Below are positions 29,058 through 32,508 of a stretch of DNA of 64,000 nucleotides, in pieces; position 1 is the stretch's first letter; each line of letters starts with the position of its first letter. The position numbers and the translations under genes were made by a program. This DNA is from Glaciozyma antarctica PI12 (Eukaryota > Basidiomycota > Microbotryomycetes > Kriegeriales > Camptobasidiaceae). The notes under the pieces were generated by a model. That model was given only the letters and a program-made list of their open reading frames with translations. It was not told the origin of the DNA and did not search any database. The stretch lies in the NCBI GenBank assembly GCA_002917775.1, contig KZ627161.1:1632305-1696304 (forward strand), given 5' to 3'.

Positions 29058-29204
29058 CCTTGTGCATGTGTTCGGCGGTGGAATGGAGGAGGAAGAGCGG
29101 CGAGCTAGGACGCGGAGGGCGCCCAAGTCGACGTGTCCTCTCGTGTTCTCCTCTCCTCTGCCACGTGGCTCCAACAACTTTGATCCACCAACTCGGCAGC
29201 TCTA
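29058..29204 (+). promoter_or_regulatory. compact divergent promoter with ACGT-core (UPR-like) sites before GRP94
   Basis: The 147 bases between the membrane-protein start and the GRP94 start contain TCGACGTGTCC at 29128-29138 and a perfect palindrome GCCACGTGGC at 29160-29169, 36-77 bases before ATG 29205. Both have the ACGTG core bound by bZIP factors of the unfolded-protein-response class (Hac1/XBP1). A role in ER-stress induction of GRP94 is inference from this and from the gene's nature; E-box factors could also use the palindrome. Confidence 0.45.
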
Positions 29205-32200
29205 ATGCGAACACGAAGCATCGCTGCGCTACTCGCACTCTCCCTTGGCTTGGTGGCTGCTCAGGAAGCTCCTTCAGCTCCGGCAGCTGGTCTCCTTACG
29301 CCGGAGCAGGAGGCTCAGATCGGCGCTGGTGGGGAGAAATTCGAGTATCAGGTGAGCTTAGGTGTACTCTCGAGCGTTCAGAGCTCCAGCTGACGGTGTG
29401 CGGCTCTCCAGTCCGACATGTGAGCTCCACCTACCTCCTGCGTCTTGTGCACGCTGACGAGCTCCCTTGCAGCGCACGCCTGATGCGGGTAGTCGTCCAG
29501 CACCTCTACACGGACAACGACGTTTTTATCCGCGAGCTACGCAAGTCGTCTCACTCCGTCCCACCCCCTGAGACAGCTCAGCTAACTCCACCTTACGCGG
29601 CAGTGTCCAACTCCAACGACGCGCTCGAGAAGACCAGGCTCCTCTCCCTCACCGACTCCTCTCTCCTAGCTACCGCACCAATCCTCAACGTTACCGTTCT
29701 GGCCGACATCCCCGGCGGAAGGATCGTGATCCGAGGTGCGTGATTCCATCAGCTGATGAGCTGGGAGGAGGGAGCTGACTGGAGCGCAGACTCTGGTATT
29801 GGAATGACGAAGGAAGCGCTGGTTACCAACTTGGGAACGATCGCGCGGTCAGGAACGCAGGAATTTTTGGAGAAGCTGGAGAAGGGAGGAACGGGAGGCG
29901 AAGGCAACAACCTCATCGGTCAGGTATGCGCTCGCCGGTCACTTGCGAGAGGAGCGATACTGATTGGTTTGCGCTCAGTTTGGTCTGGGATTCTACTCTT
30001 CCTTCCTGGTCGCGGATCGCGTCACCGTCGCGTCCAAGTCGAACGACGACCCCGTCCAGCACATCTTCGAGAGCAAGGCGGACGCTCAAGGATTCAGGTT
30101 AGTCCGCTTCAGCTTCCTAGCCTACTCACGCTGACGATATCCTTGCAGCATCGCCGAAGATCCTCGCGGCAACACGCTCGGTCGCGGAACTGAGATCACT
30201 CTGTGCGTCGCTAATTCAAACCTTTCATTCCGAGTTCCCTAACAAAGCTCTTTTCTCTCAGCTGGATCAAGGACGACGCCAAGGAGTACCTCGATAACGA
30301 GAAGCTTCGCGCACTTATCTCTCGCCACTCCGAATACGGCGCCTCTCCCATTTACCTCTGGGCCGAGAAGTCAGTCGAGGAGCCCATCGAAGCTGCCCCT
30401 GCGGCCGAAGTTGACGGCGAGGAGAAGGACGACGAGGAGGTCACGGTCGAGGACGAGACTCCAGTTGAGACGAGGACGGTCATCAAGGGCGAGTGGGAGC
30501 GCGTGAACGATCGCGCACCTCTCTGGATGCGGGAGCCCAAGGACGTTTCCGAGGTCGAGTACGAGGACTTCTTCAAGGCTACGTTCAAGGACGACGTTGC
30601 TCCGCTTGCCTGGTCTCACTTCAAGGTGCGTGCTTCCTCTGCGCCTGCCACGAGATTCAAACTGACCCGCAGACTCGCCGACTAGGGAGACGCAGGCTCG
30701 ACCTCGTTCCGCGCCCTCATCTACATTCCTTCGACCATGCCCAACGACTTCTACTCCAAAGATTACGTCTCGCTCGAATCTCTCAAGCTTTTCGTGCGCC
30801 GCGTCTTTATCACCTCCGACCTCGGCGAGAGCTACTTGCCCAAGTACCTGAATTGGATCAAGGTCTTCGTCGACGCCGACGACCTTCCTCTCAACGTCGG
30901 ACGCGATAACCTTCAGAAGAGCAAGGCTCTCGCGCAGATTAAGCGGAACCTCATCAAGCGCGTGCGTCTTTCCTTCCTTCGCTCTTCGTCAACTCACGAC
31001 CTTCTCTGCAGACGCTCGACCTATTCGCCTCCCTGTCCAAGTCGGATCCCGTGAAGTACAACACTCTTTACGAGAAGGCCGGCGTATCCCTCAAGCTCGG
31101 CGCAGTCGACGACACGAAGAACCGCGCACGAATCGTCAAGCTCCTTCGCTTCGAGACGTCCGCCTCTGCGAACCTCACCTCGCTCGACGACGTCGTCTCG
31201 CGGAGGAAGAAGGGCCAGGAGCAGATCTTCTTTATGGCGGGTACGGGGCAGAAGAAGGACACCCTCGAGAAGAGCCCGTTCGTCGAGCGACTCATCGCGA
31301 GGGGGTACGAGGTGCTCTACTTTGGAGAGCCGATGGACGAGATGCTTGCTAGCTCGATCGGGTCGTACGAAGGCCTCAAGTTCCAAGGCGAGTCTTCCGC
31401 ACGCTCGCTTTCGTCGATCCTGGCTGACGGAGCTTTCTCGCAGACGTCGCGAAGAAGGGACTCAAGTTCGGCGACGAGGACGAGGATTTCGAGGCCAAAG
31501 AGGAGGAGGCAGCCCTCAAGACTACCTTCGAGCCGCTCTCCGCGTACCTCAAGCGCGAGCTTTCCGATTCGATCAACGAAGGTCCGTCTTCGCTCCCCCC
31601 GCGCCTTTCGAGCTCTCCCACCGTACTGACATGCCGATTACCGCAGTCGTAATCTCCACCCGCCTCACTACTTCTCCCTGCCTCGTCGTCACCGACTCGT
31701 ACGCCTGGACTGGAAACATGGAGCGTTTGATGGCGTCGCAGAACAGCGGAACCGGTCAAGGATTTATGGCGGATTTCATGAAGACTCAGAAGAGGGTGCG
31801 CTCGCTTCCTTCTCTCGGCCTGAATGCGCGCTGATATTCAGAGCAGACGTTTGAGATCAACCCTAAGCATCCTCTGATCGAGGGACTGCTCGAGAAGATC
31901 GAGAAGATTTTGAGGGCGACGATGTCGGAGAAGCAGAGCTTCGCGAGACTGTCCAGGTCCTCTGGTGCGTCTTCCTTTGATGCGGCCGAACGTCGCATCT
32001 GCTGACCACCTCTCCACAGGCAAACGGCTCTTGTTCGCAGCGGTTTCACCGTTCCCGACCCCAACATGTGCGTTCTCCCCTCCTCGATCCCCTCGCATCC
32101 ACGCTGACCATTCTCCCTCTCAGCTACTTCTCCCAAGTCGAGGCACTCCTCCGCCGCTCCCTCGGCGTCTCCGCTGGCGCCAAGGCGCGCGACATCGACG

Positions 32201-32508
32201 CCATCAAGCCCGCTCCGGCAGTCGAGGCCGGCCCTCTTCGTCCCTCCGACCCGTCTTACGACCCAAAGCGAACGAACCAAGCGAACGTTCCTTCGTTCGA
32301 GAGCCCCGACGAGTGGGCCAACTGGGCTGGTACGCTCGCTTCTTCTCGTTTGCTGCGAGTTCGAGAAGCTGACGAGGTTTCGCTCGCAGATATCAAGAAG
32401 GGCCTAAAGGACTCTGGAGTCGACGCCGCTGGGAAGCCTGCTGGCAAAGCGAGTGGAGCTTCCGAGCCTGTTGCTGCCGAGTCTGTCGTGCCCCATGATG
32501 AGCTATAG
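29205..32508 (+). CDS. HSP90B1: GRP94/endoplasmin, ER-resident Hsp90 with HDEL
   Basis: This is an ATP-driven chaperone of the ER lumen. The first 20 residues ([20 protein letters not shown]) are a signal peptide and the last four are HDEL (32494-32505), so both ER entry and retention are encoded. GHKL ATPase motifs are in place: [46 protein letters not shown] and [13 protein letters not shown]. After an acidic linker with many Glu/Asp (30.38-30.47 kb) comes the middle domain ([34 protein letters not shown]), then a C-terminal dimerisation region with [13 protein letters not shown] and [14 protein letters not shown]. About thirteen introns, including an 8-base microexon (29412-29419) and a GC-AG intron (29541-29603). 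At 31908-31911 one base seems to be missing in a T run. Length, about 800 residues, fits. ER Hsp90 is generally reported missing in fungi, which makes this unusual. Confidence 0.95.
29412..29419 (+). other. 8-base microexon of GRP94
   Basis: Flanked by CTCTCCAG and GTGAGCTC, the eight bases TCCGACAT join EKFEYQ to ARLMRVVVQ, giving the family-like [12 protein letters not shown]. Skipping it would break the frame into the conserved N-domain. The introns on both sides (29353-29411 and 29420-29472) are of ordinary size for this genome. Confidence 0.75.
29541..29603 (+). other. GC-AG intron in GRP94
   Basis: The donor is GCAAGT instead of GT, the acceptor is GCGGCAG, and a branch-like GCTAAC lies at about 29581. 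Removing it gives [12 protein letters not shown], the conserved Hsp90 helix; no GT donor nearby does so. Confidence 0.8.

Follow-up and report, generated by a model that had tools for sequence, protein, structure and literature searches.

GRP94 is a dimeric chaperone of the ER lumen. It is driven by ATP and works downstream of BiP on a selection of secretory and membrane proteins. Its clients in animals, where Canopy is a partner of the protein, include integrins and Toll-like receptors, and these do not apply to a yeast. The fungal members of the family are treated in the sections of Chen et al. 2006 (PMC1525184) on which we draw here. The background of that paper reports an older view that fungi lost the ER Hsp90, and its abstract uses the wording "some Fungi species". 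An entry for Cryptococcus neoformans, (CNE)HSP90B1 (XP_571124.1), with 11 exons and 758 (780) amino acids, stands in its gene table; we read the bracketed 780 residues as the length with the signal peptide. The Cryptococcus protein does not cluster with the animal proteins and stands at the base of the ingroup, with support not above 50%, and HSP90B is given as missing in Neurospora and Saccharomyces. The discussion, in contradiction to the gene table, assigns the fungal HSP90B to Encephalitozoon (cuniculi) and denies it to Cryptococcus. In the count table the Encephalitozoon row has two entries and a total of 1, and the Cryptococcus row has one entry and a total of 2. Because these totals agree with the gene table, we read the contradiction as a slip between two rows. 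It may have fed the shorthand "lost in fungi". The first-pass annotation of the locus described below, made from the DNA letters, had started from that premise; the older view does exist, but the listing of a C. neoformans HSP90B1 in 2006 does not agree with it (PMC1525184, in the sections used). This entry probably means that a basidiomycete GRP94 was on record twenty years ago. No GRP94 of a red yeast or other Pucciniomycotina yeast is described among the matches listed in openly licensed PMC papers.

The gene lies on the plus strand of a 64-kb window, by which we mean the whole stretch of DNA that was analyzed. Its ATG is at 29205 and its stop codon ends at 32508. The spliced model has 16 exons and 15 introns and encodes a protein of about 818 residues (the window protein), which is read with X at one place. 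The introns are 50-65 nt long (n=15). Thirteen of the 15 have GT-AG borders, and two, 29541-29603 (after exon 3) and 31388-31443 (after exon 10), have GC-AG borders. All 15 contain at least one branch-point-like pentamer from a set of five, a count made without a chance control. GC donors usually occur in roughly one in a hundred introns; two in 15 is above that rate. The splicing agrees with the earlier description of an intron-rich gene at this position.

The predicted protein starts with a putative signal peptide. The Hsp90 ATPase domain follows, then a short acidic linker and the middle and C-terminal domains, and the conserved reading finishes with HDEL. Exon 1 (29205-29351) encodes the putative signal peptide and the region before the N-domain; the N-terminus is signal-peptide-like and strongly hydrophobic, with a 9-residue Kyte-Doolittle maximum of 2.7 and a cleavage site placed by eye. 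Exon 2 (29412-29419) is a micro-exon of 8 bases. The N-domain follows in exons 3 through 7: exon 3 (29473-29540) has the FIREL motif and is followed by the first GC-AG intron, exon 4 (29604-29735) contributes to the ATP site, exon 5 (29790-29923) contains the rest of DSGIGM, LGTIA and a lid insertion of the GRP94 type, exon 6 (29979-30097) encodes the FGLGFYS loop, and exon 7 (30149-30202) includes an 11-letter segment that, among the aligned sequences, is common to the window protein and GRP94 only. Exon 8 (30262-30625) spans the end of the N-domain, the acidic linker (residues about 258-297) and the start of the middle domain. The middle domain continues in exon 9 (30686-30961), which has the LPLNVGRD catalytic loop, in exon 10 (31012-31387), which precedes the second GC-AG intron, and in exon 11 (31444-31581), where it meets a second charged region. 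The C-terminal domain starts in exon 12 (31647-31795), continues through exon 13 (31847-31964) and exon 14 (32020-32067), and ends in exon 15 (32124-32329) together with the start of the tail; exon 16 (32390-32508) encodes the remaining tail, HDEL and the stop. Exon 2 was placed by its AG/GT borders and frame and all other exons by splicing, supplemented by hydropathy (exon 1), alignment (exons 5 and 7), Pfam (exon 8), motif comparison (exon 9) and frame translation (exons 13 and 16).

Pfam HSP90 matches residues 229-734 with 487.9 bits against a cut-off of 24.4 (E 5.6e-146), and HATPase_c_3 matches residues 73-189 (E 3.6e-8). In the alignment the ATP-site residues E73, N77, D119, R415 and Q419 are common to the window protein and GRP94. 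We take E73, N77 and D119 to be the catalytic Glu, Asn and Asp of the N-terminal ATPase and R415 to be the middle-domain Arg. The C-terminal MEEVD is absent, and the conserved reading finishes in HDEL. HDEL is the likely retrieval signal of this organism, because a BiP-like gene on another contig (C12), identified from its translation and with a signal-peptide-like start, ends in SHDEL. The initial reading had named the same set of features; the ATP-site residues and the acidic linker are in place and the hydropathy fits a signal peptide, while the HDEL codons are found only beyond a break in the reading frame.

This break lies in exon 13 and is a one-base shift of the conserved reading near 31906. 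Literal translation past this point gives residues unlike Hsp90, reaches a stop at codon 785 and has no HDEL. Beyond the break, 143 codons keep the conserved reading (Hsp90 C-domain, tail and HDEL), so that HDEL, as the last four codons, is in frame with the upstream exons only across the break. The description of the gene as "complete" therefore calls for a caveat, since a single frame does not reach the last part of the C-terminal domain or HDEL. The 5' half of exon 13 has stops in both other frames. An intron that removes the break was sought by eye and rejected, there being no usable GT donor upstream of the break save in the first bases of exon 13; a GC-AG intron of very small size seems implausible. 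Our guess is that the break comes from a sequencing or assembly error, because no other exon is damaged and conservation persists in the 143 codons that follow.

A search of PDB sequences returned endoplasmin as the top three matches (607, 576 and 574 bits), whereas the best cytosolic Hsp90 scored 491 bits and yeast Hsc82 and Hsp82 scored 465 and 461 (best 60 of 171 matches). In a tree of 12 sequences and 564 gap-free columns, which includes one GRP94, that of an animal (9n9j), the window protein groups with GRP94 with an SH-aLRT of 99.2 and a UFBoot of 100. The same grouping has a UFBoot of 89 and a FastTree support of 0.986 in a 7-sequence tree. With the 12 sequences, five of five alternative placements are rejected by the AU test, namely union with yeast Hsp82 (2e-5), with TRAP1 (0.0007), with bacteria (0.0008) or with the cytosolic clade (0.0096) and a position basal to GRP94 plus the cytosolic clade (0.009). 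The more conservative SH test leaves two of them standing, the cytosolic clade (0.073) and the basal position (0.075). The branch of the window protein is 0.78 long, compared with 0.36 for GRP94 9n9j. Its identity is 42% with GRP94, 41% with HSP83 8u1l, 39% with Hsp90 alpha and 38% with yeast Hsp82, values separated by small gaps, and a second alignment gives 45% for GRP94. The lid insertion of the N-domain is one residue shorter in the alignment than that of GRP94 9n9j and four residues longer than in three cytosolic sequences.

Motif strings were compared with those in Table 4 of Chen et al. 2006 (PMC1525184). The HSP90B trio given there, FLREL, IGQFGVGFYS and LPLNVSRE, has no exact match in the window protein, which agrees with it at 4/5, 9/10 and 6/8 residues. 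All three strings are present in E. coli HtpG, so the trio marks ancestral residues and is not diagnostic alone. Of the eleven HSP90A motifs in the table, all are present in yeast Hsp82 and two in the window protein, namely AGG, which is near the N-terminus and off the motif position, and RGT, which is also found in GRP94 and HtpG. The phylogeny, and not the trio, supports the assignment of the gene as a putative ER-type Hsp90 (GRP94/HSP90B). The ER-type identity first proposed for it is upheld by the PDB scores and by the trees with animal GRP94, and the placement inside the cytosolic Hsp90s that had been named as its refutation is rejected by the AU test in the case of yeast Hsp82.

The gene is flanked on the left by two minus-strand ORFs with no Pfam match and on the right by a PAT1-like gene, also on the minus strand and in two ORFs. 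The window has 31 ORFs with a length of 280 aa or more, and a Pfam scan of 21 of them identified PAT1, GCN1-like HEAT, Nop53, pinin, ornithine/arginine decarboxylase and CNH and found nothing in the others, and no tRNA or Rfam family was found in the 64-kb window. Exons 1-12 of the window gene have a GC3 of 0.77, as against 0.82 for five neighbor segments taken together, and the codon frequencies of the two correlate at 0.89. With the short introns, these values bear out the first-pass annotation in its statement that introns and codon use are like those of the flanking genes, and they support its argument that a contaminant origin is unlikely. The genome searched has 20 Mb in 18 contigs, about 60% GC and short, dense introns; on these features and on the statement of the first-pass annotation we take the organism to be a basidiomycete yeast. 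The search found no second copy of the gene. In a collection of genome contigs, at least 596 pattern matches with at least 593 relatives were obtained, and the 80 that were kept are all from records titled as bacteria. No relative was present among 468 pattern matches in viral contigs, for which the patterns were weak and of the linker type.

A perfect palindrome, GCCACGTGGC, occupies 29160-29169, with its last base 35 bases ahead of the ATG. It occurs once in the window against a shuffle mean of 0.07, and 7 of 100 shuffles contained one. As a promoter element it was set aside, its occurrence in the window being not far from chance. Genome-wide it is found at three places, compared with eight for the reversed control pattern. 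The other two places are an F-box-like coding stretch and a site beside a RidA-like gene (labels read from translations). These are not ER chaperones, and a site of the unfolded protein response was rejected.

Cytosolic Hsp90 is universal in eukaryotes to our knowledge, but none was found in this genome by Pfam HSP90 (four of four matches are the window gene), by the N-domain of yeast Hsp82 (two of two) or by the Hsp82 middle and C-domains (again two of two). Searches with the same tool gave 27 matches for Hsp70 and one each for Aha1 and Cdc37. HATPase_c (PF02518) has 16 matches in the genome and none in the window gene. A DNA pattern for GQFGxGFYS had no genome match, a result that is uninformative because an intron splits the motif in the window gene. 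Canopy (PF11938) had no match in the genome and none in the control genomes either, so nothing follows from that result. Aromatic ammonia-lyase is typical of red yeasts, and no match to PF00221 was found in the genome, which would fit another lineage or an incomplete genome. A sample of 60,538 bases from elsewhere in the genome contains no N and speaks neither for nor against missing sequence. Since Aha1 and Cdc37 are present and aromatic ammonia-lyase was also not found, missing sequence is far likelier than an organism with the ER-type protein as its sole Hsp90, and the missing cytosolic Hsp90 is likely a gap in the sequence and not biology. A sole ER-type Hsp90 would, if true, break the rule of a universal cytosolic Hsp90; we consider it extremely improbable.

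The window gene very probably codes for GRP94/HSP90B, the Hsp90 of the ER lumen, in a basidiomycete. It has most likely been retained through vertical descent, and its product has diverged from the animal protein. The two HSP90A strings found in it, AGG and RGT (PMC1525184, Table 4), could point to an origin as a cytosolic fungal Hsp90 with a recently acquired signal peptide and HDEL, but one is misplaced, the other is shared with GRP94 and HtpG, and nine of the eleven motifs are absent. Full-length endoplasmin outscores the cytosolic sequences among the best 60 of 171 PDB matches, and the AU test rejects such an origin whether the partner is yeast Hsp82 or the whole cytosolic clade, even though the SH value for the clade is 0.073. 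We regard it as almost certainly wrong. That the gene is an ER-type Hsp90 in decay, with a real break in exon 13 and a lost end of the C-terminal domain, is unlikely: the one-base shift near 31906 is present in the sequence and the long branch would suit a decaying gene, yet there is a single break in about 818 codons, the splice borders are kept in 15 of 15 introns, and an Hsp90 C-domain, the tail and HDEL can still be recognized in the 143 codons that lie past it.

A different history, in which GRP94 was lost early in fungi and regained horizontally from another eukaryote, draws on two observations in the sections of Chen et al. 2006 (PMC1525184) cited above, the lack of HSP90B in Neurospora and Saccharomyces and the weakly supported position of the Cryptococcus copy, apart from animals at the ingroup base. 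This history appears very unlikely given 15 introns that resemble those of local genes, a host-like codon use and a second basidiomycete listed with an 11-exon copy, so that retention needs no transfer. The simplest history is one of vertical retention within Basidiomycota, drawn from two basidiomycetes, of which Cryptococcus enters by a table entry in a self-contradicting paper. Together they suggest that Basidiomycota kept the ER Hsp90 and that some ascomycete models (Saccharomyces and Neurospora, PMC1525184) are without it. The window gene adds a member to a known family, for which a Cryptococcus gene was already listed in 2006, and it corrects the shorthand that fungi lost GRP94.

We infer the ER location, ATPase activity, clients and vertical descent of the window protein from its sequence and its relatives. 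The signal peptide would direct the protein into the ER, where it would dimerize via its C-terminal domain and its N-domain would bind and hydrolyze ATP. Acting after BiP, it may assist the folding of certain secretory or membrane proteins, and HDEL would bring escaped molecules back from the Golgi. This yeast may thus have ER clients that need GRP94, and a tractable yeast could show which ER clients need it where integrins and Toll-like receptors are lacking.

Among the described Hsp90s, TRAP1 (7kck) and E. coli HtpG have the Hsp90 core in common with the window protein but are 33% and 36% identical to it, have little or no linker, and are rejected as sisters. Yeast Hsp82 (PDB 2cg9) has the same Hsp90 domains and ATP-site residues; its aligned sequence lacks a signal peptide, whereas the window protein has a putative one, and the cytosolic Hsp90 of yeast ends in MEEVD (Chen et al., PMC1525184) where the conserved reading of the window gene has HDEL. 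The Cryptococcus neoformans protein (CNE)HSP90B1 (XP_571124.1), compared by its table entry (PMC1525184), is likewise an intron-rich basidiomycete HSP90B, with 11 exons instead of 16. GRP94/endoplasmin (HSP90B1; PDB 9n9j, 5uls and 2o1u) provides the best PDB matches and is like the window protein in domain order, lid insertion and 19 letters of sequence. The two differ in that the window protein, at 42% identity, has GRD for SRE and GLG for GVG beside catalytic residues, and its tail beyond the C-domain is outside the aligned GRP94 stretch. Animal GRP94 ends in a KDEL-type motif and the conserved reading of the window gene in HDEL, and this C-terminal motif varies among the HSP90B proteins covered by Chen et al. 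2006 (PMC1525184).
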